A DNA stretch of 27,116 nt from a virus, in IMG/VR virus record IMGVR_UViG_3300000116_000171, positions 1 through 27,116 of that record; one strand, given 5' to 3'. Shown here in pieces: positions 276 through 18,933 of this stretch. Both the position numbers and the translations under genes were made by a program. Numbering within the stretch: the first letter of the stretch is position 1; every line of letters begins with the position of its first letter. The notes below the pieces were generated by a model, which was given only the letters and a program-made list of their open reading frames with translations, ran no database searches and was not told the origin of the DNA.

Positions 276-596
276 ATGGATTGGAAAAACATCTTGAAAA
301 GAATTCAAGATAGGCAATCCAAAATAAATGAAATGGATGAATGGGTTCAAGTATTCATAAATTCAATATATGAAATGCATGGAGATTTAGATAGGGGTCA
401 TGGTAATAATTGGTTGGGTATTACTAGATTAATAGCCGCAGTATTATATTCTGGAGCAGGTGCAGAACATAAAGATATTATGAAGAAATTCAGAGGAATT
501 ATGGATATTATTGAAAATAAATATATAGATGGCAAAGAACTCAAGAATAAGTTAGAAACTATAATAGATAGAAGAAAAGGTGAACGCTATGCCTGA
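276..596 (+). CDS. Tagged small protein, MDWKNILK N-terminus (106 aa)
   Basis: The start is placed at ATG 276 (RBS AGAGGAATTGAA) rather than upstream codons, because this makes the protein begin with MDWKNILKRI, the tag shared with several other small proteins here. The rest is mostly helical, with a more hydrophobic centre (WLGITRLIAAVLYSGAG, about residues 47-63) and a charged C-terminal helix. Its end overlaps the terminase start by 8 bases, so the two are probably translationally coupled. No known family is recognised. The position before the large terminase could suit a small terminase subunit, but no helix-turn-helix is clear. A co-packaged virion protein is the alternative suggested by the tag. 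Confidence 0.75.
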   Translation: MDWKNILKRIQDRQSKINEMDEWVQVFINSIYEMHGDLDRGHGNNWLGITRLIAAVLYSGAGAEHKDIMKKFRGIMDIIENKYIDGKELKNKLETIIDRRKGERYA

Positions 597-2022
597 TGCT
601 GAAGAATTTAACTTAGAACATCAAATGGATATGGAATTATCTAAAAATTCCTTTCCATATTTTTTTCAACACGTTCTAGGCTTTGACTTTCCTTCTTACA
701 TTCAAGAGTGGAATGAATTAATGGACAGTACACAAAGAACTGTAATTGTTTGTTCAAGAGACCACGGAAAATCTGTATTTATGCATTCGTGGGTTGTTTG
801 GAATTTAGTGTTTCAACCAGCACCATATCAAATGCTTTATATCTCTTCTAACCAAAAGCAGACTTTAGTTCACATGAGAGACATTGATAAGATGTTTCAG
901 CATCCACTACTAAAAGCATTTAAACCTGCAAGGGGTTGGGCTATTGGTAATATTACTTTAACAAATGGTAATCAAATTTTAGAGCGTTCCGTTGGTTCAC
1001 AGATTCGTGGACTTCACCCTCAAGAAATTATTATTGATGACCCTTTGAAAGAATTTAGTATTAGTGGTATTCAAAAGGTTACTGATTGGTTTTATGGAGA
1101 CATGATTCCTACGCTTCACCATACTGCATCGTTAAGAGTTATTGGAACTCCATTCAGTTACACAGATATTTACCAACAGTTATCAGAAAATGAAGCATAT
1201 ACTGTAAGAACCTACCCATGTTTAAATGCCCTCAATGAACCACTATGGCCTGAAAGATGGAACTATGATGCACTAATGGCACGTAAATCAGAAGTAGGGT
1301 CTTTAATGTTTACGAGAGAATATATGTGTGTTCCAATCTCAACTGGAACTTCTCTCTTTAATCCAGAATACTTAGACCATGCTAAGAATAAAAATTTAGT
1401 TCTTAAGCCTAGCAGAAGAGAAGGATATAAGTATTTTGTAGGGGTAGACCCTGCAATTTCTACTGATGGAGACTACAATGTAATTACTGTATTAGAAGTA
1501 GATGCAGACGATAATAAGAATGTAATTTATGTAGACCGTTCAAAGAATGTAGAGTTTAGAGAAAATATTCAAAAGGTTAAGATTATAGGAAAGATATTCA
1601 ATCCCGAAGTTATTCTTTTTGAGACAAATACTTTCGCTAAGTCCTTTACTCAGGAACTTCGCCATGTAGCAGATTTAAATGTTCATGACTTCAATACCAC
1701 TAGGAAGAAGAAACAAGAAATTATTCTTAATTTACAAATGACTCTTGAGAATCAAAAGATGAATTTCCCATACGGTAATGAGGAAAGTAGAAGAGTTACT
1801 TCGGCATTAGTAGAAGAACTATCTATGTTCGCAATTACAGAACGTGGGAAATTTGAAGGGATTGGGGCGCACGATGACATGGTTATGAGTTTAGCCTTAG
1901 CCAACGCCGCCACGTTCCAAGTCTCAGAAAACTTCATACTCTTAGACGATATGGATATATTTGGTAGTCCTACGACTCCAAAGAATCGAGTAAATGTTCC
2001 ATTCATAGGATTGAATCTTTAA
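589..2022 (+). CDS. terL: Terminase large subunit
   Basis: The packaging motor ATPase and nuclease that pumps DNA into the prohead and cuts it. The start is ATG 589 (477 aa) behind AAAAGGTGA; GTG 580 is a weaker alternative. ATPase: phosphate-binding loop S56-R-D-H-G-K-S62, Walker B I-I-I-D150-D151 (Asp where Glu is common), and coupling motif V-I-G186-T187-P. Nuclease (RNase H-like fold): D287 in GVDPAIS, an acidic position at E345 in LFETNTF, and H-D429-D430 in GAHDDMVM. Both domains are complete and the length is normal for the family. The next gene follows after 9 bases, with the RBS touching the stop. Confidence 0.95.
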   Translation: MPDAEEFNLEHQMDMELSKNSFPYFFQHVLGFDFPSYIQEWNELMDSTQRTVIVCSRDHGKSVFMHSWVVWNLVFQPAPYQMLYISSNQKQTLVHMRDIDKMFQHPLLKAFKPARGWAIGNITLTNGNQILERSVGSQIRGLHPQEIIIDDPLKEFSISGIQKVTDWFYGDMIPTLHHTASLRVIGTPFSYTDIYQQLSENEAYTVRTYPCLNALNEPLWPERWNYDALMARKSEVGSLMFTREYMCVPISTGTSLFNPEYLDHAKNKNLVLKPSRREGYKYFVGVDPAISTDGDYNVITVLEVDADDNKNVIYVDRSKNVEFRENIQKVKIIGKIFNPEVILFETNTFAKSFTQELRHVADLNVHDFNTTRKKKQEIILNLQMTLENQKMNFPYGNEESRRVTSALVEELSMFAITERGKFEGIGAHDDMVMSLALANAATFQVSENFILLDDMDIFGSPTTPKNRVNVPFIGLNL

Positions 2023-2031
2023 GGTGATAAT

Positions 2032-2337
2032 ATGTGGAAATATATTCTTAAAGCAAGGTATTGGGATAAAAGCGGAATACCATTAAGAATGTTCAAACCT
2101 ACTACGAAATCCACAATGCTCAATTTAACCCCACTTATTAAAAATGCTCTTAAAGATGTTGGGGAGATGAACTTATATATCTATCGAGAAAATTTAGGTG
2201 ATTATGACCCAGACATATTGTTTGAAATTAAAAGCGTAGAAGATTTTAAAAACAAAATTAGTAAACTTATGAGTGGAAATTCTTGGAAAAAATTAGATAA
2301 TAGACATAAATTTTTAATTTATACTGATGACAATTAG
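2032..2337 (+). CDS. Tagged small protein, MWKYILKA N-terminus (101 aa)
   Basis: It begins MWKYILKARYW, a form of the shared tag lacking one residue. The rest is a mixed charged protein with probable alpha/beta content: MNLYIYRENL and a C-terminal strand KFLIYTDDN separated by a Lys-rich helix. It resembles the 101-residue product at 10190 in size and in having a NLYIY segment near the C-terminal half, so the two may be distant paralogues. The RBS is AAGGTGATAAT directly after the terminase stop. No family is recognised. By analogy with the tag hypothesis it may be an internal capsid protein. Confidence 0.75.
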   Translation: MWKYILKARYWDKSGIPLRMFKPTTKSTMLNLTPLIKNALKDVGEMNLYIYRENLGDYDPDILFEIKSVEDFKNKISKLMSGNSWKKLDNRHKFLIYTDDN

Positions 2338-2345
2338 GTGATAAT

Positions 2346-3722
2346 ATGGCTACTTCTGAAGAACTGAGGGATATTTCTGCTAAGATAACAGATGTCGCTG
2401 ACAAAAAGGATAAAATCAAAGAAGCAGAAGATGACATCGAAGAAGCAACAGGAGGCGAAATTAAATTGTCTTTCTTAAGTAATGGTCATGTTCTTTCTGA
2501 AATAGAAGAAATACATAAGATTTCTACTAAATTAAATATCAATGCTACTGATGCAAGGAAACAATTAACTTTCCCTAAAGAATATAACATTGATGGTCAA
2601 ACTATTCCTGACCTCGTAAGAAAAATGAGAAAGGCTAGAAGGCAACTAAAAGGAGATATGAGAGATAAGATGGCAAAAAGTATTGATGCTCTTATTGATG
2701 GATATTCAGATTATCTAGATACTTGTATTAAATCTATGCATTGGATTAGTCCATACTCTCATCCATTAAAGAAAATGTCTATCAAAGAAAAAGACTTATT
2801 CAAATTGAATAAAATGAAAGATAGTCAATTAAGAAGAGAAGTAGTAGATGTTCTTTGTAAGTATTGGGAATTAGATATTAAGCAAAAAGATATGGCATAC
2901 GGTAAAGAATATGCTGAAATATCTAAGAACATTAAAGAAGTAAAGAAAGAATACAAGGAAGTCTTATCTAAGATTAGTTCCCAACAATTAGTTAAATCTA
3001 AAAAAGAATTGGCTAAAGAATATATTCTAAAACAAATAATTAATAATCCTGGAATTGCTGCTAAAGGCATTCATGATAGTATGCCAAATAATTTACATAG
3101 ATACAGTAATAGTAATATGATTTCTAAGATGGCTAGAAGTATGCCAGTTACAAATTATGACGGGTCTTATTACAAAGTGCCTTCTATGCTAATGAAAAAC
3201 ATTTGGGCTTATACTGCTGCATTTATTGATTCTGATGGATATATTACAATGGATAGGAATATGAATCCAAGAGTAGGATTAGTTGCTACTGGTGAAAGAG
3301 GTAAGGCTTTCATGCAAGAAATGCATAAATCTATTGGTTATGGAAGAATGCACCTTGACCAAAAATCACCACAAGATACTCGATTAATTAACCGATTAAA
3401 TTTTTATTCTCAAGCAGATGTTACAGATTTGCTAACTAAGTGCTTACCTCACTTTAGATTAAAGAAAGGTAATGCTAAGTTACTATTAGAACTTATTCGT
3501 ATGAAGAAGTCATATAAGAAAGCAGAATGGTATCAGCCAAGATGTGAAGAAATCTTTAAGTTAATGAAGTGGGAGAACCATAAAGACCATGTAGGTTTTG
3601 ATTGGTCTAAAGAAGGAATATACTTAGATGATATTACTAAACTGCAAGGTAATTGTAAAATGTCTACTATGGATAGTTTAGAAAATATTGGTGGAACTAT
3701 TCTCAAGGAGGAAGCAGAATGA
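2346..3722 (+). CDS. Protein with a LAGLIDADG-like domain (458 aa)
   Basis: The N-terminal 270 residues are helical and charged, with likely coiled-coil stretches (Lys/Glu-rich around 190-225). Residues about 286-300 (IWAYTAAFIDSDGYI) match a LAGLIDADG motif with its catalytic-type Asp, and the following 90 residues (KGNAKLLLELIRMKKS and others) fit one LAGLIDADG repeat. Free homing endonucleases usually have one or two such motifs; only one is visible here, so a dimer would be expected. It is not an intein, because no splice-junction residues or host protein halves are seen. It may be a homing nuclease joined to a virion protein, or a domesticated DNA-binding protein. It starts at ATG 2346 behind TAGGTGATAAT. 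Confidence 0.8.
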   Translation: MATSEELRDISAKITDVADKKDKIKEAEDDIEEATGGEIKLSFLSNGHVLSEIEEIHKISTKLNINATDARKQLTFPKEYNIDGQTIPDLVRKMRKARRQLKGDMRDKMAKSIDALIDGYSDYLDTCIKSMHWISPYSHPLKKMSIKEKDLFKLNKMKDSQLRREVVDVLCKYWELDIKQKDMAYGKEYAEISKNIKEVKKEYKEVLSKISSQQLVKSKKELAKEYILKQIINNPGIAAKGIHDSMPNNLHRYSNSNMISKMARSMPVTNYDGSYYKVPSMLMKNIWAYTAAFIDSDGYITMDRNMNPRVGLVATGERGKAFMQEMHKSIGYGRMHLDQKSPQDTRLINRLNFYSQADVTDLLTKCLPHFRLKKGNAKLLLELIRMKKSYKKAEWYQPRCEEIFKLMKWENHKDHVGFDWSKEGIYLDDITKLQGNCKMSTMDSLENIGGTILKEEAE

Positions 3723-3838
3723 CCTTTGTTTATGAAAGTTGTTGTCTTATGGCTATGCATGAAGGTAAAGCAAAACCATTCAGCCTTTGTGAAAAATGTT
3801 GGATTGAACAAGGTAGTCCTGAAGGGGTGAAAGTATGA
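3719..3838 (+). CDS. Cys-rich mini-protein (39 aa)
   Basis: A short frame opens at ATG 3719, behind CAAGGAGG at 3704-3711, one of the strongest ribosome sites here. It overlaps the upstream stop by 4 bases (ATGA) and the downstream start by 4 bases (ATGA). The 39-residue product has four cysteines: C8-C9 and C24-x-x-C27 (SLCEKCWIE), suggesting one small zinc-binding knuckle. The double overlap with strong coupling signals argues for real expression despite its size. Function is unknown; zinc-stabilised DNA-binding or an adaptor role is only a guess. Confidence 0.65.
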   Translation: MTFVYESCCLMAMHEGKAKPFSLCEKCWIEQGSPEGVKV

Positions 3839-4167
3839 ATTGGCAAACTATTCTTAAGAAAAAGGGTAAACATCCTGCATTAAAGAGAGCAGGTGTTAGT
3901 GGTTTTAGTAAGCCTAAAAGAATCAAGCACAAAACTAAATCTCATATTGTTGTTGTTAAAGACGGAGATAAAGTTAAAACTATTAGATTCGGGCAGAAAG
4001 GTGTAAAAACAAATCAAACTGCTGGACAAAGAAAAGCATTCAAATCTCGCCATGCTAAGAATATTAAGCGTGGAAAAATGTCTGCGGCTTATTGGGCTGA
4101 TAAAGTTAAATGGAGCCCAAAAAAGACCAAAGAGAAAAAGAATAAAAATTGGAGAAAGGGGTCTTAA
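3835..4167 (+). CDS. Tagged basic protein, MNWQTILKKK N-terminus (110 aa)
   Basis: Very rich in Lys and Arg. After the MNWQTILKKK tag and a basic linker comes a compact domain (about residues 37-95) with strands IVVVKDGDKVKTIRFG and then GQRKAFKSRHAKNIKRGK and SAAYWADKVKW. This arrangement (beta hairpin, KxFxxRH, then xYWxxKxxW) resembles a small domain I recall in many phage virion or packaging-associated proteins; the family name should be checked. Its charge suggests DNA binding inside the capsid. It is the first of five consecutive genes with the same tag. It starts at ATG 3835 behind GAAGGGGTGAAA. Confidence 0.8.
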   Translation: MNWQTILKKKGKHPALKRAGVSGFSKPKRIKHKTKSHIVVVKDGDKVKTIRFGQKGVKTNQTAGQRKAFKSRHAKNIKRGKMSAAYWADKVKWSPKKTKEKKNKNWRKGS

Positions 4168-4169
4168 TT

Positions 4170-4406
4170 ATGAATTGGCAAGATATTCTTAAGAAACCAA
4201 GTAGGAAGCAAAGAAAAATTCCTAAACATACTTACAAAGTTCCTAAAGGTGTTTATAGCAACCCAGCATTGAGATTAAAAATACATAGAAGATTGTGGGC
4301 TAAAAATACTCATGGAACTGGAAAATATAAATGGTCTGGTCGTAAATCTCAAGAATTAAATAGATTATATCAAAAGGAAGGTGGCGGATTTGTCAATAAA
4401 GGATAA
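4170..4406 (+). CDS. Tagged basic protein, MNWQDILKKP N-terminus (78 aa)
   Basis: The start is placed at ATG 4170 (RBS GGAGAAAGGGG, partly inside the upstream coding end) because it gives the tag MNWQDILKKP. The remainder is strongly basic and aromatic, with the run KHTYKVPKG and then LKIHRRLWAKNTHGTGKYKW, likely nucleic-acid binding. No cysteines and no membrane segment. Its first 25 bases are nearly identical to those of the genes at 3835 and 4715, as if the 5' coding end had been copied or strongly constrained. Its end overlaps the next gene. No family recognised. Confidence 0.75.
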   Translation: MNWQDILKKPSRKQRKIPKHTYKVPKGVYSNPALRLKIHRRLWAKNTHGTGKYKWSGRKSQELNRLYQKEGGGFVNKG

Positions 4407-4713
4407 TTGGTTTTCTATTCTTAAAAAGAAAAATTTAACAGAGTCCCAAAAAGATATGGTTGAATGGAATAAAGAAGATTGGGTAGATATGGCTAATCCT
4501 AATAAAAAGAAAGGAACATACAAAAAAGGAAGATATGCTCCTAAAGCCGTTGCTGAATCATTAACCCCTAGTCAAAGAGCCTATGAAAACAGAAAGAAAA
4601 GAGCAGGAAAGGAAAAAGGAAAACAACACGTTCCTAGAGGAAAAACTGCAAAAAATGTTTATAGAAGAGTTGAAGGAAGAAGTCGTGGAAGAGGATTTAC
4701 AAGGAGAGATTAA
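4390..4713 (+). CDS. Tagged basic protein with TTG start (107 aa)
   Basis: The best start is TTG 4390, 7 bases after the GGT of GGAAGGTGG; GTG 4381 would add three residues but lies on the RBS itself. The protein begins MSIKDNWFSILKKKNL, so the tag here is a few residues inside the N-terminus rather than at the first Met. The rest is highly basic and disordered-looking, ending in a Gly/Arg-rich tail (RGKTAKNVYRRVEG, then SRGRGF) typical of nucleic-acid-binding tails. It overlaps the preceding gene by 17 bases. Confidence 0.7.
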   Translation: MSIKDNWFSILKKKNLTESQKDMVEWNKEDWVDMANPNKKKGTYKKGRYAPKAVAESLTPSQRAYENRKKRAGKEKGKQHVPRGKTAKNVYRRVEGRSRGRGFTRRD

Positions 4714-4714
4714 A

Positions 4715-4990
4715 ATGAATTGGCAAAATATTATTAAAAGGCGAAAAACGCAAAGGCTTGAAGAAGAAAGTTATATTACAGATAGAATTATACAAGGAAA
4801 GGAACAGGTATCAGAAGATAAAAATAAAGTTAAGTTTGTTGGCGATAGTGTTCGAGAACAAAAAGAACGAGATATTAAAAGATACGGAAAAGAATTTCTT
4901 AGAAGGCAAAAAAAAGAAAGGCAACGTCTTAAAAATATGGATTCTAAACAAAGGCTCGAAAACCCCGTTGTAGATTTAAAAGGTGATTAA
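4715..4990 (+). CDS. Tagged charged protein, MNWQNIIKRR N-terminus (91 aa)
   Basis: A longer frame exists upstream, but ATG 4715 follows the RBS AAGGAGAGATTAAA and gives the tag MNWQNIIKRR. The upstream extension would be an out-of-frame read of the preceding gene. The body is an almost entirely charged helix (many E, K, R, Q), which could form a coiled coil. The final codons overlap the RBS AAAGGTGATTAA of the next gene. Function is unknown; the clustering with other tagged genes suggests a common destination. Confidence 0.75.
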   Translation: MNWQNIIKRRKTQRLEEESYITDRIIQGKEQVSEDKNKVKFVGDSVREQKERDIKRYGKEFLRRQKKERQRLKNMDSKQRLENPVVDLKGD

Positions 4991-4991
4991 A

Positions 4992-5369
4992 ATGAAATGG
5001 GAACAAATAATTAAAAGAAATTGTGGGTGTGGAAAGAACCCTTGCGAAAAATATGGAGAAATACAGAAAGGTAAAGGCCAAAGGCATTTTTACCTTGAAG
5101 GCGGGAAACCTGTTCAATGGACAGGAGAAACACATAAACATGATGATGGAACTTTAATGTCTGGTAAAGAACATAAAGAAGGCGTTAGTAAGGAATTGCT
5201 TCATATTGAAGAATTAAGTGAACAGCAACAGAAACATTTAGGTAAAAATACTACTGTTATTAAGAATAAAGAACTATCTCCAAAACAAAAGAAAATTGCA
5301 GAATTAACTCCACCAGAGGATAAAATTGACGGTGGAGACTTAGCAAGACTAAGAAACAAAAAGGCTTAA
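4992..5369 (+). CDS. Tagged protein with Cys/His segment, MKWEQIIKRN (125 aa)
   Basis: It starts at ATG 4992, 6 bases after the GGT in AAAGGTGATTAAA, giving the tag MKWEQIIKRN. Next is a cysteine cluster (NCGCGKNPCEKYGE, three Cys), then HFYLEGGKPVQWTGETHKHDDGTLMSG, whose pattern suggests a small beta domain with several His. The C-terminal half is Lys/Glu-rich and helical, with KELSPKQKKIAELTPPEDK. The Cys and His residues could hold a metal. It is the last gene before the portal and ends 39 bases before it. Confidence 0.75.
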   Translation: MKWEQIIKRNCGCGKNPCEKYGEIQKGKGQRHFYLEGGKPVQWTGETHKHDDGTLMSGKEHKEGVSKELLHIEELSEQQQKHLGKNTTVIKNKELSPKQKKIAELTPPEDKIDGGDLARLRNKKA

Positions 5370-5385
5370 TAGGGGCATCTCATTA

Positions 5386-5397
5386 CCCTAATTAGGG
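5386..5397 (+). promoter_or_regulatory. Palindrome overlapping the portal ribosome site
   Basis: The 12-base perfect palindrome CCCTAATTAGGG lies in the short gap before the portal gene. Its right arm supplies the GGG of the ribosome-binding site GGGAGG (395-400 of this block). As DNA it could be an operator; as RNA the arms could pair between molecules or weakly mask the site. What is seen is only the symmetry and the overlap; a function is inferred. Confidence 0.35.
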
Positions 5398-5408
5398 AGG
5401 CGTAGGCT

Positions 5409-7049
5409 ATGGTTGAAGAAAAGAAGAGATTCTCCATAACTAACTTGTTTAGACGTTCTACTCCCAAACCTGCCGATAGGCAAATTTTTAACATTGGTAT
5501 TCAAGAAAGGCGTAATCAACAAATGATGACCGCCCCAGTCATTTATTCAATGGTTCAACAATCTGTCATTGTTAGAACCTGTGTTACTCAATTGAAGCAA
5601 GAAATCTTTAGAAGAGGATATGTTTGGGAAAAGGCATATGAAGCCCTTTGTCAAGATTGTGGTAAGAAACACCAAAAGCCTATTACTGAATGTACTAGAT
5701 GCGGTTCTGAAAATTTAAGACTTCCAGACCCTAAACAATTAGAATACATTGAAAAATTCTTAGAACAGAACGTAAATAAATCAGAACAGTTATTCATTGA
5801 CGTTCTCAAAGAATTAGAAGAAGATTTGAATACAATGGATGATGCTTATATTGTTATGGTAAAGGAATACTTTATTGACGGTAATGGTAAAATTCGTATG
5901 CATCGAGTAAAAGAACTTTATCGAGGCGACCCAGTAACTATGTATATCTATGCCGATGAAAACGGTGTTAGAGGTACTAAGGGTTTTACCTGCGTAAATC
6001 ATCGAGACATTATTGCTATTGAACCCCATGAAATGTGTGAAACTTGTGGAAGTAATTTATTCCCTATTCATTATGTAAATAGAGTCGGAGGTGCTGACCA
6101 ATACTTTTTAGAAGGGGAAGTCCTTCACTTTAGCAAATACAGCCCTTCTCGTTTGTATGGGCTTTCTCCTATATTGACTCTCTATAATCATATTATGACA
6201 TTGATTGCTATGGAGAATTATGTTAATTCGTCTTATACAAAGAGCAGAATGCCTAGAGGTCTATTAGCAGTACAGACTAGAAACATGGACTCTATGCGCT
6301 CTTTTTGGAGGTCTGTTAAGGAAAAGATGGAACAAGACCCACACTTCATTCCTGTTATGGGAATCGAAGCAGAGAACGGTAAAGGGGCAGTTGAATGGAT
6401 TAAGTTCATGGACAGTTTGAAGGAGATGGATTACGTTTCAGTCAAGGAAGATTTACGGGACAGAATTGCAGCATTTTACGGTGTAAGTAAAATCTTTATG
6501 GCCGATAATACTACAAGCGGTGGATTAAATAATGAAGGTATGCAAATTCTCGTTACTAACAGAGCAGTTCAAATGGCTCAGAATGTCTACAATAATTATG
6601 TATTTCCCTTCTTAGTGAAACAATTCGGCATTACTGATTGGGATTTAAAACTCCCTCCAAGTGAAGAAGAAGATGAAATAGCAGTATTAAGAAAGAGAGA
6701 ATTAGAAGTTAGTATTGCAGCAGCAATTAAGAATCTAGGATTTGAAATTGAAATGGATGAAGATGGTCAATTTACATACACTAAACCTGAACCTGAAGAA
6801 CCTAAAGAAAAAGAAGGTGAAGAAAAGGATTTAGAAAAAGACCCATTAGCAGGTTCTAATCTAGACCAAAGAGATTTAGATGAACAAACAAGGCAATTCG
6901 CAGAGGGTGGAAGTAAACCTCAAGAAAACCCAGCAAAAACTAGAAATAAACCTTCTATTAGTACTGGCCCAGATAAAAGATTTCAAGGATTACCTGAAGA
7001 TGCGGGTAATCAAAACGTAGATAGAAGAAGTGAAAGGAGAGTTGGATGA
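5409..7049 (+). CDS. Portal protein with two zinc ribbons
   Basis: The dodecameric portal through which DNA enters and leaves the head. The length (546 aa), the position after the terminase, and motifs in the core (SVKEDLRDRIAAFYGVSKIF, then TTSGGLNNEGMQ) fit the HK97/SPP1-type portal family. Two inserted metal sites are visible: C81-x2-C84-x10-C95-x2-C98 and C195-x2-H198-x11-C210-x2-C213. The C-terminal 110 residues are acidic then Gln/Asn/Arg-rich and probably disordered. It starts at ATG 5409 behind GGGAGGCG. The zinc ribbons are extra to the minimal portal fold and may decorate the wing or clip. Confidence 0.9.
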   Translation: MVEEKKRFSITNLFRRSTPKPADRQIFNIGIQERRNQQMMTAPVIYSMVQQSVIVRTCVTQLKQEIFRRGYVWEKAYEALCQDCGKKHQKPITECTRCGSENLRLPDPKQLEYIEKFLEQNVNKSEQLFIDVLKELEEDLNTMDDAYIVMVKEYFIDGNGKIRMHRVKELYRGDPVTMYIYADENGVRGTKGFTCVNHRDIIAIEPHEMCETCGSNLFPIHYVNRVGGADQYFLEGEVLHFSKYSPSRLYGLSPILTLYNHIMTLIAMENYVNSSYTKSRMPRGLLAVQTRNMDSMRSFWRSVKEKMEQDPHFIPVMGIEAENGKGAVEWIKFMDSLKEMDYVSVKEDLRDRIAAFYGVSKIFMADNTTSGGLNNEGMQILVTNRAVQMAQNVYNNYVFPFLVKQFGITDWDLKLPPSEEEDEIAVLRKRELEVSIAAAIKNLGFEIEMDEDGQFTYTKPEPEEPKEKEGEEKDLEKDPLAGSNLDQRDLDEQTRQFAEGGSKPQENPAKTRNKPSISTGPDKRFQGLPEDAGNQNVDRRSERRVG

Positions 7050-7050
7050 T

Positions 7051-7278
7051 ATGAGCGAAGATACTAAACAAAAAGAAATTAGGCTAAGAAAAGAATTAGC
7101 AAAACTAAAGACACAGAATGCAAATGATACTAGAAAGGTCGCAAAGAACCGTGATTTTTCTGTTGGTGGATTACCACCAGATACTACGCATAAGTCTAAA
7201 ACATCATCTAATGATGTTCCAGATGTAGTTTTGTTACCTCCTAGTAAAAGAGGAAGAAAAGAAAACATTCCATTTTGA
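7051..7278 (+). CDS. Small hydrophilic protein of unknown function (75 aa)
   Basis: It starts at ATG 7051, two bases after the portal stop, behind AAAGGAGA. The N-terminal 40 residues form a likely basic coiled coil (KEIRLRKELAKLK), followed by a Pro/Ser/Lys-rich unstructured tail ending KRGRKENIPF. No cysteines or membrane segment. A GTG at 7030 would add seven residues inside the portal end but has a poorer RBS. I do not recognise it; the position behind the portal suggests a portal- or head-associated role. Confidence 0.65.
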   Translation: MSEDTKQKEIRLRKELAKLKTQNANDTRKVAKNRDFSVGGLPPDTTHKSKTSSNDVPDVVLLPPSKRGRKENIPF

Positions 7279-7288
7279 GGTGAATTAG

Positions 7289-9583
7289 ATGTTACATAAG
7301 GCCATTCTGAAAGGAATAGATAATGATATTTATGGTTTGTTATCTTTTATGTATGATGATATGGTTAGTAAAATATCTAAACAAGATGCCAAATATACTA
7401 TGGCACAAGGATTAGAAGCCAAAGGTAAGACTAAGGCTGTGGAAGCATTGAAAAGACTTCTAGAACCAATAGACACTTTCGACGGTAAAAAAATTAATAT
7501 TGGTGAATATATTAAAAATAAGCCTTACCTTAATAGGATTGTTTATAATAGAAAATACACAGAAGGTACTAAGACTGAAAGTGAAGGAGATTCAATTCAA
7601 GTTCAAAAACTCAAACTCTTATCTAAGTATGCAAATGCAAAAGAACTAACAAAAGAATATGGGTCTGACTCTGAAATAAACAAAGAAAAATATTTGATAG
7701 ATAAGAAAATAGAAGTACCTGTTAATTTATCTCTTAATGTTGGTGAAAGATTAACTCCTGAACAAGTAAAGGAAAATAAAGAAATTACTGAAAGAAATAA
7801 GCCTGTAAATGATGCACTATCTAAAATAGACAAATTAACTGATAAGTTTTTTGAGGAGACTAAAAAACTATCAACTATCAAGTTTGGCAAAGACTACGAA
7901 GAGAATAAATCTAAAAAAGAAATTGACCCTAAAGAGGCTGCTAGTTATGACAAACTTAAATCTAAATTAGATAAGGATATTCAAAAAGAGATTGATAAGA
8001 TTGATAAACTCAAAGGGAAAAAAGAAAGTAAAACTATTAAAGTACTCAATGAACAATATAAACAAGATGTTGATGAATTCTATAAGAAAAAATCACTAAT
8101 TAGAAATTTATTCGATGGAAAGAAACCAAAGGCAGGACTACTTTACGGAGACAAAGCCAAAGCACAATTGAAAAAAATTGGTAAAGTAGGTACTCCTAAA
8201 AGTACAGATAGTTCATTATTACAACATTTGAATGCTCAGACCCCTAAAGGTGCGGGAAAAGGTAATGTTCTTAGAAGAGGTAAAGAAACTAATTTTGATA
8301 TATTAGTATTTGATTTACGAAGAACTATGACTATGATTCTAAATGCCTTCGGTTCAGAATATAAAGACACAGTAGGTAAAATTCTAGAACTGCTCAAAAA
8401 GTCATTAAGGTCTGAATTAGACAGGCTTAGCATTAAAGATGAAGTAACCGCAGAAAGTAAAACAGATACTTCTGTAAAAGAAGGAACTGCTAAAACTTTA
8501 GGATTTTATAAGAATTTACTTTCTATAATTAGTGGTAAGATAGTATCTAGCGATGTCAAAGATTTATTTGATAATGACCCAATAGTAAAGCAGCAGATAG
8601 TTTATTTACTAGTAAATGATAAAAATAAATATAGATATTTCTTATTACCAAGAAAGGGTGGTAAGCAATTAGATAAAAGTAAAAAACCGCTACAGGGAGA
8701 AAATTTTACTAAATTTGATGTGTTAGAAAATAAACTAACTGCTGAAAAATATAAAGAACTTAGGAGTATGATAGTTAAATCAGGAATTCCTTTATATGTT
8801 TCTACTGGCGCAAAAGGTCAATTGAGAGGTAATTTAAAACAATACGCCCAGAGTTTAGAAGATGTGTTTATTCTTTTGGGTAGAGTAGTGGATTCTGCTG
8901 AATATAGTAGTTCTATGATAGATTACAATATGTTAAAATTAAAAACTAAAATTAAAGAGGACTTAGGAAGAATCAGAACTACTGATAAAGGTAATATGAT
9001 TCAATTTAATCAAGACGCTACTTCTTTTTTAGAAGCATTAGATGATTTATCTTCCGAATATAACAAGGGTACTGCTAAACAAAGAAGAGATAAACTATTA
9101 GATAATTTATCTGACAAAATAGATTCTATTAGAGAAAGAATAGGAAGTAAGGAAAAACAAAAGTTACCAGTAAAGATAGAATTTTCTCAGAAAGGATTGG
9201 ATATTGAAACGAGCAGAAATGGTAAAATTGATAGGGAAATACAAAAAATTAAGTCTAATTTTTATACAATGTTAGACGAAGCCCCAGCGAAGGGTGATGA
9301 AGTTATTATGGATTCAATTGTGATTAACGAATACAAAACAATTCTTGCTGAACTAGAAGAAAATTTAGAAGATTCTTCTGAAAGGATGGAACGTATTACA
9401 GACGGAATGAAAAGATTAGAGGATGCACATTCTGATTATATGGCTTCTGGGAATGGAGAAAAAGAAACTGAGAAACTCACAGAAAAAGATGGTAAGATAT
9501 ATACTGGAGTCCAAAACGATTTAAAGTATCTTAAGACAACTCTAAGTCGATTGATGGAAAATACAAAAGATAAAGGTGAATAG
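7289..9583 (+). CDS. Long Lys/Glu-rich protein of unknown function (764 aa)
   Basis: A highly charged, mostly helical protein with probable coiled-coil segments (about 170-270 and 590-640) and no cysteines in the core. The N-terminal segment (MLHKAILKGIDNDIYGLLSF) is weakly like the tag because of AILKG, but lacks the Trp. The middle contains DLRRTMTMILNAFGSEYKD and a more globular stretch near 430-560 (IVYLLVNDKNKYRYFLLPRKG). The position between portal and capsid genes and the length suggest a virion or internal scaffold component. No catalytic motif is seen. It starts at ATG 7289 behind GAGGTGAATTAG. The overall style is like the 583-residue product at 20257. Confidence 0.75.
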   Translation: MLHKAILKGIDNDIYGLLSFMYDDMVSKISKQDAKYTMAQGLEAKGKTKAVEALKRLLEPIDTFDGKKINIGEYIKNKPYLNRIVYNRKYTEGTKTESEGDSIQVQKLKLLSKYANAKELTKEYGSDSEINKEKYLIDKKIEVPVNLSLNVGERLTPEQVKENKEITERNKPVNDALSKIDKLTDKFFEETKKLSTIKFGKDYEENKSKKEIDPKEAASYDKLKSKLDKDIQKEIDKIDKLKGKKESKTIKVLNEQYKQDVDEFYKKKSLIRNLFDGKKPKAGLLYGDKAKAQLKKIGKVGTPKSTDSSLLQHLNAQTPKGAGKGNVLRRGKETNFDILVFDLRRTMTMILNAFGSEYKDTVGKILELLKKSLRSELDRLSIKDEVTAESKTDTSVKEGTAKTLGFYKNLLSIISGKIVSSDVKDLFDNDPIVKQQIVYLLVNDKNKYRYFLLPRKGGKQLDKSKKPLQGENFTKFDVLENKLTAEKYKELRSMIVKSGIPLYVSTGAKGQLRGNLKQYAQSLEDVFILLGRVVDSAEYSSSMIDYNMLKLKTKIKEDLGRIRTTDKGNMIQFNQDATSFLEALDDLSSEYNKGTAKQRRDKLLDNLSDKIDSIRERIGSKEKQKLPVKIEFSQKGLDIETSRNGKIDREIQKIKSNFYTMLDEAPAKGDEVIMDSIVINEYKTILAELEENLEDSSERMERITDGMKRLEDAHSDYMASGNGEKETEKLTEKDGKIYTGVQNDLKYLKTTLSRLMENTKDKGE

Positions 9584-9584
9584 A

Positions 9585-9953
9585 ATGACATGGAACTACT
9601 ACGATAATGGCGAAGAGTTTATACTCAAAGAAGATAAAGAAATATCAAAGAACTTACTAGATACATTAAATCCTAAAGAAAAAAAGAAACTTAAGAAGCA
9701 AGTAAACTCTGCTTCTCCTACTGAATTTTTTGGACAGGACTTTACTAAGTTAGGGGATTTAATTATTGTACTTAAAGAAATTAACTTTATTAAATCAGAT
9801 GATAAACTTAAAAAGAAAATGAAATCAATGGATGAGCGCAACGTAGATATAGTCGCTACTGCAAGTAAACTCCGTAAGGAGTACGAGTTGCTGTATCGTC
9901 AATTACGTGATTTAGTTTATCCACCCAAAAAAGGAGAGAAAAAAGATGACTGA
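9585..9953 (+). CDS. Small charged protein of unknown function (122 aa)
   Basis: It starts at ATG 9585 behind AAAGGTGAA, one base after the upstream stop. It opens MTWNYYDNGEEF: a Trp at position 3 as in the tag proteins, but the rest of the tag is missing, so I do not count it. It is helical and Lys-rich with the segments KEISKNLLDTLNPKEKKKL and a C-terminal helix (VATASKLRKEYELLYRQLRD). Its end overlaps the next gene by 8 bases, showing tight coupling. The size and helical pattern would suit a chaperone or head-completion role, without proof. Confidence 0.7.
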   Translation: MTWNYYDNGEEFILKEDKEISKNLLDTLNPKEKKKLKKQVNSASPTEFFGQDFTKLGDLIIVLKEINFIKSDDKLKKKMKSMDERNVDIVATASKLRKEYELLYRQLRDLVYPPKKGEKKDD

Positions 9954-10188
9954 AGAAAACAAAGTTAGTAACGACATTTTGGCTATATTAAAAGCCTTAA
10001 CAGATAAGATTGAAACATTAGAGAGGACTGTATATGCAAAGGATAATTTGCTAATGAAGTCTGGTTTAGTTGTTTCTCAAAGCCCTACTCCTTCAATGGA
10101 TAATAAGATTTCTTCACCTGTTGGTGATGTTGGAAGTATGGATTGGAAAGATATTCATAAGATGGTAGAAAACGTAGGAGGTCAATGA
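9946..10188 (+). CDS. Small protein ending in SMDWKDIHK motif (80 aa)
   Basis: It starts at ATG 9946 behind AAAAGGAGAG. A short N-terminal coiled coil (ILAILKALTDKIETLERTV) is followed by a Ser/Pro-rich linker and a C-terminal end DVGSMDWKDIHKMVENVGGQ. That end is nearly the same as the C-terminus of the protease-scaffold protein at 13625 (IASMDWSDIHRFVGGNQ), so both carry the D-W-x-D-I-H-K/R element at the C-terminus. This layout (oligomerisation helix, linker, binding peptide) is that of a minimal scaffolding or capsid-binding protein. That reading is inference. Confidence 0.75.
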   Translation: MTEENKVSNDILAILKALTDKIETLERTVYAKDNLLMKSGLVVSQSPTPSMDNKISSPVGDVGSMDWKDIHKMVENVGGQ

Positions 10189-10189
10189 T

Positions 10190-10495
10190 ATGAAATGGAA
10201 AACATTACTAAAAGCAAAAAACGATTATAAAAGCCCAGAAGAACTAGAAGGATTATTTGATAAATTCGTACATCCAAAAGTTCTACAATGGATTAAAAAA
10301 GACTCTCTGCAACTGCCTATCCCTTTGCGAAAGTTAAAAATGACAGGCGATAAGGCAGAAACAAATGTAGATTCATATTACAGAAATAAAGATGGTGGTA
10401 AATGGAAAAATCACATAGAAGATTATAATTCTGATGACACAAACTTATATATTTATTTTAGGCAAGCGAGCAGAGGCGGCCCAATTCCAGAGTAA
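10190..10495 (+). CDS. Tagged small protein, MKWKTLLKAK N-terminus (101 aa)
   Basis: It begins MKWKTLLKAKND, again the shared tag, behind a very good ribosome site (AGGAGGT at 10176-10182). The middle contains LPIPLRKLKMTGDKAETNVDSYY and the end has DDTNLYIYFRQASRGG, which recalls the NLYIY segment of the product at 2032. No catalytic motif is recognised. It follows the C-terminally tagged 80-residue protein after one base, so two genes with the two tag placements are adjacent. Confidence 0.75.
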   Translation: MKWKTLLKAKNDYKSPEELEGLFDKFVHPKVLQWIKKDSLQLPIPLRKLKMTGDKAETNVDSYYRNKDGGKWKNHIEDYNSDDTNLYIYFRQASRGGPIPE

Positions 10496-13595: not shown

Positions 13596-13624
13596 CTGAA
13601 CTTGATTAGAAAGGTTTGAAGGAC

Positions 13625-14860
13625 ATGAGCATAAGTATCATGGCGACAAGGAATGATGAATTTAACATTCTAAAGAGCGACGAACTTATGATTGGTGGAT
13701 ATGCAAGCATTGAAATTGTAGATAAACAAAATGATTTAATAACTTTGAAAGCATTAAATGAAGCCGTTCAAAAGTTCATGTCTAAACCCGAATACAGAAA
13801 CGTAATGACAAATCATTCAAATGTTCAAGTAGGCGAAGTAGTAGATTCATATAGAGACAAAACAGGGAGATTGTGGAAAACAGAAGTAGATGATGTTGGA
13901 TTCTTTGTTGTAATCAAATTAAGAGATGATATAGAAAAAGCCAAAGAAGTTGGAAGAGGAATTCGCAAAGGGTCATTAAGGTCATTTAGCATTGGGGGAC
14001 AAGCATTACAGAAATCTAAGAAAACGCATGATGAATTGGGTAAATACAATGAAATCAGCAAATTAGAACTGCATGAAGTTACCATATGTGAAAAAGGAAT
14101 TAATCCCGAAGCGAGATTCGATATACTAAAACAAGATAAAGGAGAAGATATAATGACTAACAAACTAGAAAAAGCATTGGAAGAATTAGACGCATTGATG
14201 TCAGAAGTCAATACGTTGAGAAAGGAAGAAGAAGAACTCATGTTGGATGAAAAGGGTAATCCTAGAGAAAACATGGAAATGGCTGATGAAATGGCTGATG
14301 ATGATGTCGATGACGATGACACAAAGGAATCTTCTGAATACATGGACACAGATACAGGTGAAAATCCTAGAGAAAAGACAGATAAGGCTTATCTTCGCAC
14401 ATTAGACGGCGCAGGTAATCAAATCGGTGAACCTGCTGATAGAATCGTTATTAATAACGGTAAGCCTACTTCAACCGATATGCCAGTAGTTAAGGCATTC
14501 GGAAACAATGAACTAGAAACTCTTGATTTGAGTGTTTCAAATGTTGAAAAGGCATACGAAGCATTCCGTCAAGAACAACTTGAAGCACTTGCTTACGATA
14601 ATCTTCAAAAGTCTTTTGAAGCACGATTCGCTAATGAAAAGAATTCAAGAGAAAATACTCTCGCAAAGTCTCAATATGATGCGGCTTCCGAGATTGCATC
14701 CCTAAAGGATGAATTTACACAACTAAGAAAGTCTTTGACAGCAGAGAAGGAAACAATCCTAAAGGCTCAAGAAGATTCAATTATTAAGGCTCCATCTATT
14801 GACGATATTGCATCAATGGATTGGTCGGATATTCACCGCTTTGTCGGGGGAAACCAATAA
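13625..14860 (+). CDS. Prohead protease fused to scaffold-like region
   Basis: HK97-type (U35) serine protease that cleaves scaffold and capsid termini during maturation. ATG 13625 is preferred over TTG 13616 because AAAGGT (13610-13615) is 9 bases away. Protease residues: H64 (MTNHSN), S122 (RSFSIGG) and the acidic/His region L-E-L-H-E-V-T-I 147-154. From residue 177 on, the chain is acidic and coiled-coil-like (LEKALEELDALMSEVNTL), then a linker and a long helix, and ends IASMDWSDIHRFVGGNQ, the C-terminal form of the tag. Capsid-binding helices at scaffold C-termini are known in P22 and phi29, and the location fits. The capsid gene follows 16 bases later. Confidence 0.88.
   Translation: MSISIMATRNDEFNILKSDELMIGGYASIEIVDKQNDLITLKALNEAVQKFMSKPEYRNVMTNHSNVQVGEVVDSYRDKTGRLWKTEVDDVGFFVVIKLRDDIEKAKEVGRGIRKGSLRSFSIGGQALQKSKKTHDELGKYNEISKLELHEVTICEKGINPEARFDILKQDKGEDIMTNKLEKALEELDALMSEVNTLRKEEEELMLDEKGNPRENMEMADEMADDDVDDDDTKESSEYMDTDTGENPREKTDKAYLRTLDGAGNQIGEPADRIVINNGKPTSTDMPVVKAFGNNELETLDLSVSNVEKAYEAFRQEQLEALAYDNLQKSFEARFANEKNSRENTLAKSQYDAASEIASLKDEFTQLRKSLTAEKETILKAQEDSIIKAPSIDDIASMDWSDIHRFVGGNQ
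14138..14155 (+). promoter_or_regulatory. Internal ribosome site and ATG for separate scaffold
   Basis: Within the protease-scaffold gene, AAAGGAG at 14138-14144 is followed after 8 bases by an in-frame ATG (14153, residue 177). It lies exactly at the protease-to-scaffold boundary, so translation from it would give a 235-residue scaffold ending in the DWSDIH motif. Phage lambda makes its scaffold Nu3 the same way within gene C. The site is seen in the sequence; its use is inferred. Confidence 0.6.
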
Positions 14861-14876: not shown

Positions 14877-16211
14877 ATGACAGGATATATTAACACAATT
14901 GCAGATTTAGAAGCACAAACATACGGAACAGGAACTTTTGCAGGTAATTCTTTACTAAAGCAAGCAGGAATGGTCGGTGGAATTCATACAGGACATGATG
15001 GAAGTCCAGCATTTAGCGGTTCAGCCATTTCAGATGTTTCAGCACTATACAACGTAGTTTACGGACAAAAGGTTTGGTCTATGCTAAACCGTGAAGTAAA
15101 CGCACTATCAATGATTTCAAAGCGACCATACACTTCAAGCGGTTGGAGAGTATTAAAGTCAAGACCTGCTGGTGGAAGCGGAAATACTTTTACTGTTGGC
15201 GAAAGCGGAACTGCTTCTTTAGCAGAATTAGGTTCTGATTCTCCAAGAGCAGATTTAATTGGTGGTGTTCCAGAAAATGCAGGATTATCTACTGCTCAAG
15301 ATGGATTGGGGCCAATTGCACCAACATATGCTCAATTAAACATGAGTCCAAAGGTTATTGCTCATCAATTCGATTTCAGCGAATTAGCAATGGAAATGGC
15401 TCAAATTGATGATGGTATTGGCGATATTAGAGCGCAAATGCGTGAAGATATGGGTAAGCACCATGCAGAAGTTCAGAATAAAATGCTTGTAATGCCTTTG
15501 GAACATTATGGTGAAAGTGCAGCAATGCCTAACATTGGTAACAATTTGACTTCATTAAATAAGGTTATTACTTCAAGAGCAGAATTACTCGCTATTGATG
15601 GTAATGTTATTGCTACTGATACAACCTCTGCTTCAAACGCATTAGGTAAGATTTACGGTAATGAGAGATTTACTGCGGCTTCTTACTTAGATGCTACAAT
15701 TGATTTCGGTTCGGGATATGCTTCAGGAAATGTTCGTTCATTAACTCTAACTCTGTTGAATAACATGATTAGAAACCTAAGACTAGCAGGTGGTTCACCA
15801 AAGGTTATTCTTACTGGATATGATACAATTCAAGCACTTGCTGACCTATTGCAAAGCCAAGAGCGATTTATGGATAGAAAGGAAATTGTTCCTACTGTAA
15901 ACGGTGTTCGTGGAACAAAGGGTCAAGAAGTTGGATTTAGAGTTGCAACATACTATGATATTCCATTGATTCCTGTAAAGGACATGGCTACAACTGGTAA
16001 TGCATCATCTAAACTATCTGACCTATTATTCCTTGATACAGACCATCTATGGCTTTCAGTTATGAAGCCAACACAATACTTTGAAGATGGTATTGGCAAT
16101 GGAAACCCATTCGGTGTAGGAACTCTCGGAAACAGAGCATTATACCGAACAATCGGAGAAGTCGGATGTTCTTTCTTTAAGGGACAGGGTAAGATTACTA
16201 ACGTACAATGA
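14877..16211 (+). CDS. Major capsid protein, HK97 fold
   Basis: The 444-residue shell protein. It comes directly after protease and scaffold, starts at ATG 14877 behind AAAAGGTGATTTAAG and has the composition of an HK97-fold capsid: a flexible Gly-rich N-terminus, a middle with a long helix (DIRAQMREDMGKHHAEVQNK), and a C-terminal P and A domain region (PKVILTGYDTIQALADLL, YDIPLIPVKDM, GEVGCSFFKGQGKI). Codon use is less AT-biased than that of the small genes, as expected for a highly expressed product. No long N-terminal delta domain is seen, agreeing with a separate scaffold. The fold is inferred from context and pattern rather than a single signature. Confidence 0.88.
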   Translation: MTGYINTIADLEAQTYGTGTFAGNSLLKQAGMVGGIHTGHDGSPAFSGSAISDVSALYNVVYGQKVWSMLNREVNALSMISKRPYTSSGWRVLKSRPAGGSGNTFTVGESGTASLAELGSDSPRADLIGGVPENAGLSTAQDGLGPIAPTYAQLNMSPKVIAHQFDFSELAMEMAQIDDGIGDIRAQMREDMGKHHAEVQNKMLVMPLEHYGESAAMPNIGNNLTSLNKVITSRAELLAIDGNVIATDTTSASNALGKIYGNERFTAASYLDATIDFGSGYASGNVRSLTLTLLNNMIRNLRLAGGSPKVILTGYDTIQALADLLQSQERFMDRKEIVPTVNGVRGTKGQEVGFRVATYYDIPLIPVKDMATTGNASSKLSDLLFLDTDHLWLSVMKPTQYFEDGIGNGNPFGVGTLGNRALYRTIGEVGCSFFKGQGKITNVQ

Positions 16212-18270: not shown

Positions 18271-18933
18271 ATGTCATTACTAGCAGGATTTGCAGTTGTT
18301 GTTACAGAAGCAGTAATTGGTTTTTATAAAAAAATTCATGCTATTAACTTTGGTATCTATGGTGCGACAATGGTAGGTAAAACTACTTTACATCATCAAT
18401 TAAGAACTAGGGGAGAAGTACCAGCAATACAGAAAAGAACTGTTGGTCGTCATAGAGCCACTAGAAAATCAATTAAATTAGATGGTGAAATGAATACTGT
18501 AAAAACTTCCGATATTGGTGGAGAAGCGATATACTGGAAAGAATGGGCTAAAGATATGCAAACTAGAAAAGTAAAATATATTATTTTTTTAATCGACCAT
18601 AGACATTTAGATAAAGGTGGTAATTTAGACCATCAAGTAGCATGGAAGTTTTTAGTAGATACAATTGTTAGTGAAAGATGGCCTACTGGTAAAAAGAAGA
18701 AGGAATCAGATTATCCATTAGCAGTTTCTATTTGGGCTAATAAGTATGATATATGGGGAGATAAACATAAAAGTGATTTACCTATTGAAAAGCATCCTAT
18801 CTTTGAACCATTTAAATATGGAATGCAAAAGTTAAATGATGTAGGAATTCCAACACACAAATATATTGTTTCGGCTAAATCACAACCCGAAGCAGTTTAT
18901 CAAGGCGTGTTTACAATGATAAAGGATTATTGA
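18271..18933 (+). CDS. Arf/Ras-like small GTPase with N-terminal membrane segment
   Basis: GTP-binding switch protein. Motifs in order: G1 G31-A-T-M-V-G36-K37-T38-T39, possible G2 Thr at T57 or T64, G3 D81-I-G-G84, G4 N157-K-Y-D160, and G5 S201-A-K-S. The G3 form DxGG is Arf-like. Residue 85 is Glu where Ras and Arf have the catalytic Gln, so intrinsic hydrolysis may be slow or use another residue. The first 20 residues (SLLAGFAVVVTEAVIGF) are hydrophobic and could anchor it to a membrane. The start is ATG 18271 with a modest RBS (GAGGCT). It sits between membrane genes and Cys/His protein. It could instead be an MglA/Rab-like archaeal GTPase that the virus acquired. Confidence 0.85.
   Translation: MSLLAGFAVVVTEAVIGFYKKIHAINFGIYGATMVGKTTLHHQLRTRGEVPAIQKRTVGRHRATRKSIKLDGEMNTVKTSDIGGEAIYWKEWAKDMQTRKVKYIIFLIDHRHLDKGGNLDHQVAWKFLVDTIVSERWPTGKKKKESDYPLAVSIWANKYDIWGDKHKSDLPIEKHPIFEPFKYGMQKLNDVGIPTHKYIVSAKSQPEAVYQGVFTMIKDY

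Follow-up and report, generated by a model that had tools for sequence, protein, structure and literature searches.

A tryptophan-anchored terminal peptide on many unrelated proteins of magrovirus-type archaeal viruses is a probable head-targeting signal

Among tailed phages, the scaffold proteins Nu3 of lambda and gp8 of P22 carry C-terminal coat-binding segments. The capsid-targeting sequence (CTS) of T4 encapsidates diverse internal proteins and can bring foreign proteins into the head (PMC3012670), and encapsulins, whose shell has the HK97 fold, use cargo-loading peptides (CLPs) that are found at either terminus of the cargo and attach to the luminal side of that shell (PMC7355545). Magrovirales, tailed viruses with genomes of 90-110 kb that infect Poseidoniales archaea and are related to Druskaviridae, keep the replication module on the strand opposite to the morphogenesis module, and possess a family B polymerase and an ATP-dependent DNA ligase (PMC12999244). 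Here, we analyse a short tryptophan-containing peptide (the tag) at the ends of many unrelated proteins encoded by IMG/VR virus record IMGVR_UViG_3300000116_000171, positions 1 to 27,116 (the window, meaning that whole stretch of 27,116 bases), and by its relatives, and propose that it probably serves magrovirus-type archaeal viruses as a portable signal for head targeting (cargo loading) that mimics the C-terminus of their scaffold. We found no paper tying a capsid-targeting tag to archaeal viruses, though two of the primary papers on magroviruses or Poseidoniales viruses may mention one.

Eight products of the window carry the tag, as a preliminary description of this DNA had noted: seven start directly with M-(x)-W-x-x-[IL]-[IL]-K, and the eighth, at 4390, has NWFSILKK near its start. 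The tagged ends, all read from the DNA, are as follows.

276 to 302, plus strand: tag MDWKNILKR, N-terminus of a 106-residue protein (276-596)
2032 to 2055, plus strand: tag MWKYILKA, N-terminus of a 101-residue protein (2032-2337)
3835 to 3861, plus strand: tag MNWQTILKK, N-terminus of a 110-residue protein (3835-4167), body phrog_7595
4170 to 4196, plus strand: tag MNWQDILKK, N-terminus of a 78-residue protein (4170-4406), body related to phrog_17747
4390 to 4428, plus strand: tag NWFSILKK near the N-terminus of a protein of 107-110 residues, body phrog_14910
4715 to 4741, plus strand: tag MNWQNIIKR, N-terminus of a 91-residue protein (4715-4990)
4992 to 5018, plus strand: tag MKWEQIIKR, N-terminus of a 125-residue protein (4992-5369)
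10190 to 10216, plus strand: tag MKWKTLLKA, N-terminus of a 101-residue protein (10190-10495)

The exact start of the 4390 protein is uncertain (TTG at 4390 or GTG at 4381, with the end at 4713), NWFSILKK lying a few residues after it. The probability that at least 7 of 34 genes would start in this way is ~4e-23 by a binomial estimate, made post hoc from the composition of the window. The products have little in common after their first residues, again as first described, and when 126 representative proteins were aligned the tag Trp was the one invariant column. Among matches of the bodies, the tag is retained in three of four at 276 (the window counted in) and in 7/7 at 4992, where one relative (L091) has the tag directly on a later part of the body, while the single relative found for the 2032 body is 32% identical and starts MWWNIIK.

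Comparison with relatives used gene calls made as the longest open reading frame with alternative starts allowed, a crude caller, and a tag pattern chosen after the finding had been seen; as the relatives are phylogenetically linked, neither the counts nor the Fisher P given below can be taken as independent, an effect that is smallest for the C-terminal copies and the cargo-by-lineage test. A logo of 141 tags from eight genomes gives the consensus M-[STN]-W-[KEQ]-[DNE]-I-[LI]-K, with L, I, V or M four residues after the Trp (W+4) in 141/141, K or R at W+5 in 139/141, and no conserved residue after W+6. Variants exist, some genes differing by one residue (such as MSWKEEIKK) and others starting MTWDYYN. 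Each of the eight genomes (76-96 kb) has 11-18 tagged genes, against 0.26-0.48 expected from shuffled N-termini. In a set of 109 non-redundant related loci, which comprise 1945 genes and 536,284 residues, ~283 genes have the motif starting at residue 1-7; it occurs 141 times at or beyond residue 60, ~85 of these being one conserved capsid-protein site. In each of 12 genomes from two more distant capsid groups, the DNA tag pattern had 7-22 matches on one strand and 0-2 on the opposite one, and a reversed-pattern control had 0-3; nine other viruses had 0-1 matches to the tag pattern. That all this is chance or a start-codon artefact might be argued from the post hoc choice of the W..[IL][IL]K pattern and from the crude caller, but the excess of ~26- to 60-fold over shuffles in the eight genomes, together with reversed-pattern and other-strand counts near zero, refutes it, and we put its probability at practically nil. 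Cultured or named distant relatives (HVTV-1, vir335 and vir519) have no tag and no comparable scaffold end, and their virion data are therefore of no help here.

Nearly all tagged genes are encoded on the strand of the virion genes (17.6% of plus-strand genes, against 1/568 on the minus strand); in the closest group they occupy the stretch between the end of the replication module and the terminase and portal genes. A scan of genome contigs found matches only in virus contigs binned under bacterial metagenome-assembled genomes. Three magrovirus contigs (L212, L213 and L214) sit inside assemblies labelled Maricaulis and Altibacter, apparently through misbinning.

The tag is modular, the 747 N-tagged proteins across the relatives falling into 269 unrelated body clusters, 180 of them singletons, and some bodies recur without it in bacterial phages. 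The 3835 body is ~70% identical to proteins of Roseobacter-group phages, which are untagged and start MSVPDRVKATMEREG (CRP-13) or VPSKKKDPRLDRAG (P12053L); homologues of the 4170 protein are untagged in pelagiphages (HTVC034P, HTVC115P) and in CRP-13, those of the 4390 protein in HTVC034P and HMO-2011, and those of a further family (L092) in CRP-7, CRP-212 and a Vibrio phage, so that in four small cargo families in all the bacterial-phage homologues have ordinary starts. For two unrelated cargo families in public viral contigs, 24/24 magrovirus contigs were tagged against 0/132 others (Fisher P 9e-29). Magrovirus genes lay nearby in 20 of the 24, and 20/20 contigs with such genes were tagged; four further tagged contigs looked unplaced; three of these encode the magrovirus capsid protein at another position, and the last, a 36 kb fragment, has nine tags, all on the same strand. 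This split, with the untagged phage homologues, indicates that the tag follows the virus lineage and not the cargo.

The tags would need no targeting role if genes had been duplicated and their bodies had then diverged rapidly, or if the gene starts carried an element acting at the DNA level, and a few neighbouring tags do share codons (3835 and 4170). The excess of identical codons is slight, though: same-residue codons within tags are identical in 55% of cases versus 48% expected from codon usage, which is near neutral and implies that the tags are kept mainly by peptide-level selection, not recent DNA copying. Given also the untagged bacterial-phage homologues of the bodies, the tags at C-termini described below, and the contradiction by the lineage swap test (24/24 versus 0/132), we regard this explanation as very improbable.

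The 3835, 4170 and 4390 bodies (window 3835-4713) all occur in marine bacterial phages, CRP-13 (L164) and HTVC034P (L208). In CRP-13 they are near neighbours (gp69, gp66 and gp65) upstream of the terminase genes, a pattern as if a cassette had moved between bacterial phages and archaeal viruses with every member gaining the tag. In two relatives (L104 6580-7026 and L122 844-1281) the cargo is a fusion, in which the tag is followed by an EF-hand-like stretch (DKNKNGKLDAEDF) and then the 3835 domain.

The preliminary description took the tag to be N-terminal, which holds for the products above but not strictly; it had missed C-terminal copies as well as a related C-terminal motif on the head proteins encoded at 9946 and 13616. 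Thirty plus-strand proteins have the motif no more than 8 residues from the C-terminus (against ~6 expected), and just one of the 30 is also N-tagged. One C-tagged family of 329-381 residues, only 22-28% identical overall, ends with an invariant KSW followed by x-[ED]-[LIVM], and in its AlphaFold2 model the tag lies within a short helix that a disordered linker (predicted local distance difference test, pLDDT, ~40) separates from the rest of the protein. For the N-tagged 3835 protein, pLDDT is ~49 over residues 1-10 and mostly 80-92 in the body, so that at either terminus the models leave the tag outside the folded body.

As to what the tag is attached to, Pfam and PHROGs searches with tagged proteins mostly gave no match, and two predicted cargo structures had no significant match when their folds were searched in the PDB; one N-tagged protein is a PAP2 phosphatase, and two C-tagged proteins contain GNAT acetyltransferase domains. 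In the window, the products at 3835, 4170, 4390 and 4715 are rich in Lys and Arg. Across relatives most tagged bodies are near neutral, their net charge per residue having a median of +0.03 (-0.02 in untagged proteins) and an upper quartile of +0.09, with about one-tenth above +0.24. The proposal of a capsid co-packaging tag thus gains from the short terminal peptide, its unrelated cargo, its modularity, its place in the morphogenesis module and the related scaffold C-terminus; a cargo that is mostly DNA-binding is not supported.

Other N-termini also recur. Several proteins, some encoded between portal and scaffold and others in the cargo block, begin with MTWDYYN or MTWDFY (window 9576-9953; L158 4718, 13602, 14176 and 14436, four related starts). 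Between portal and scaffold the window also encodes a large Lys-rich protein (7289-9583), whose counterparts in relatives range from 577 to 1100 residues, and the N-termini of these large proteins resemble a degraded tag (MLHKAILKG, MWKAIIAKK, MLWEAVLVG). A protein of 1152 residues in L269 (929-4387) starts MGTLLKAYLKN and has a full C-terminal tag, VTWREILKVN, at its end.

What connects the tag to head assembly is a related motif, M-[DSE]-W-x-[DE]-I-[HN], at the end of two head proteins.

10138 to 10167, plus strand: C-terminal motif MDWKDIHKMV of the 80-residue protein 9946-10188, a second scaffold-like head protein (152 relatives)
14816 to 14845, plus strand: C-terminal motif MDWSDIHRFV of the S78 prohead protease/scaffold 13616-14860 (183 sequences)
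14153 to 14860, plus strand: nested in-frame scaffold reading of 235 residues, from an internal ATG after GGAGAAGAT (start conserved in relatives)

The motif Trp of the protease/scaffold is 99.5% conserved in its 183 sequences. With hhalign, scaffold and 80-residue protein aligned only over their last ~23 residues (probability 95%, falling to 3% with the ends removed); these head-assembly proteins thus share a terminal peptide that has the layout of the cargo tag (M-x-W-x-D-I). An internal start equivalent to that of the nested reading stands at about codon 180 of the prohead protease gene in 180/182 relatives, as would be expected of a protease-scaffold gene. This conserved nested start could also favour an arrangement nearer the T4 model, in which the tag binds the scaffold core or the protease instead of the capsid protein, and cargo is built into the core and freed by proteolysis. 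We think this unlikely: a related motif on the scaffolds themselves is more readily explained by a third partner common to both than by binding of cargo to scaffold, and no cleavage site was seen after the tag. The shared end motif bears likewise on the idea that the tag directs proteins to a site other than the capsid (virus factory, terminase/portal complex, host polymerase or membrane), with cargo that never enters the virion. A short amphipathic helix, on genes in a virion-strand block that need not be structural, would be compatible with such a role; set against it are the two head-assembly proteins that end in the related motif and the conserved Asp, Asn or Glu at W+2, which would be odd in a membrane anchor, and we regard it as quite unlikely.

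We return to head targeting by scaffold mimicry. Here the tag, at whichever end of a cargo protein it stands, would be a short amphipathic helix that, during procapsid assembly, docks at the site used by the C-terminal helix (M-x-W-x-[DE]-I-[HN]) of both the scaffold and the 80-residue scaffold-like protein; this site would most likely lie on the inner face of the HK97-fold capsid protein. Some 10-20 different cargo proteins per genome would thereby be enclosed in the head together with the DNA and pass with it into the next host cell. Several points weigh against this. No conserved protease cleavage site follows in the 141 tags, which leaves cleavage without sequence support. One group (group 214: L214, G017) has some tagged genes downstream of the capsid and neck genes, so that the association is with the morphogenesis strand and not strictly with terminase and portal genes, near which enrichment had been predicted and near which tagged genes do lie in the closest group. 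The match between motifs is inexact, W+4 being mostly His or Asn in the scaffold end motif versus Leu or Ile in the cargo tag, and an N-tag profile ranks the ends only at about the 90th (protease) and 97th (80-residue protein) percentile of internal Trp sites, which makes a shared dock plausible, not proven.

We lean slightly towards a broader proposal, that magroviruses run an open-ended modular protein-delivery system in which a single scaffold-mimicking end peptide recruits almost any protein into the virion for delivery to archaeal cells, be it an enzyme or the product of a gene that marine bacterial phages also have, with about one-tenth or more of the genes in each genome encoding cargo. 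If the tag does target cargo to the head, viruses of some of the commonest archaea of the surface ocean would possess a protein-loading code, eight residues would turn hundreds of small viral proteins classed as unknown into predicted virion cargo, effector discovery in uncultured archaeal viruses would become directly testable, and a short peptide would be at hand for loading chosen proteins into a large HK97-fold shell.

By its gene content, the window is a fragment of a tailed archaeal virus, encoding a terminase, portal, S78 prohead protease, SU10/phrog_24667 capsid protein, ATP-dependent DNA ligase and tail tube; Rfam and tRNA scans of it gave nothing. Three of its untagged or docking-related genes, assigned by gene match, are these.

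580 to 2022, plus strand: terminase large subunit, without tag, neighbour of tagged genes
5409 to 7049, plus strand: portal protein, without tag, neighbour of tagged genes
14877 to 16211, plus strand: major capsid protein (SU10_MCP, phrog_24667), the proposed docking surface

At 25-29% identity, its capsid and portal proteins have matches in the haloviruses HVTV-1, HCTV-1 and HCTV-5, and far closer relatives number in the hundreds among viral contigs. In relatives of 76-99 kb, the virion genes and the replication-side genes lie on opposite strands, and 8/8 large relatives encode a family B DNA polymerase (DNA_pol_B). The published description of Magrovirales fits this architecture as well as the polymerase, the ligase and the halovirus matches, which suggests a magrovirus-type virus; no named magrovirus record was among the phage-collection matches, from which near records may have been left out, and the assignment rests on architecture. 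The polymerase matches PF00136 as two separate pieces in G002 (68338-70004), G008, G013, G014, G018 and G019 and as one piece in G017 and G020, and so is apparently split in some groups. Between terminase and portal, the window encodes an untagged protein of 458 residues (2346-3722) whose C-terminal part resembles HNH/homing endonucleases (phrog_5046), and relatives have similar proteins at the same place. A conserved P-loop GTPase-like protein of 220 residues (18271-18933; weak MMR_HSR1) is encoded among the genes downstream of the capsid protein.

Set beside the described systems, which for the T4 CTS and encapsulin CLPs were compared by description and not by sequence, the tag shares with the CTS a short N-terminal peptide on diverse, small, unrelated proteins, a head-module context and a virus-encoded prohead protease. 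It differs in its archaeal host, in the capsid lineage, in its use at C-termini too, in its relation to the scaffold C-terminus, in showing no conserved cleavage site after it and in its ~10-20 cargo genes per genome. With CLPs it shares a terminal peptide of about ten residues at either end of unrelated cargo and an HK97-fold shell, binding to which is here a proposal; the shell is that of a virus head with DNA, scaffold and protease, and not an encapsulin, given the terminase, portal, prohead protease, capsid and tail-tube genes. Like the coat-binding segments of lambda Nu3 and P22 gp8, the motif ends a scaffold, here one nested in the protease gene with an internal start, but those segments are not known to be copied onto many cargo proteins. 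If our proposal is right, a solution like the T4 CTS or the encapsulin loading peptide would have arisen again, made from the scaffold's own end.

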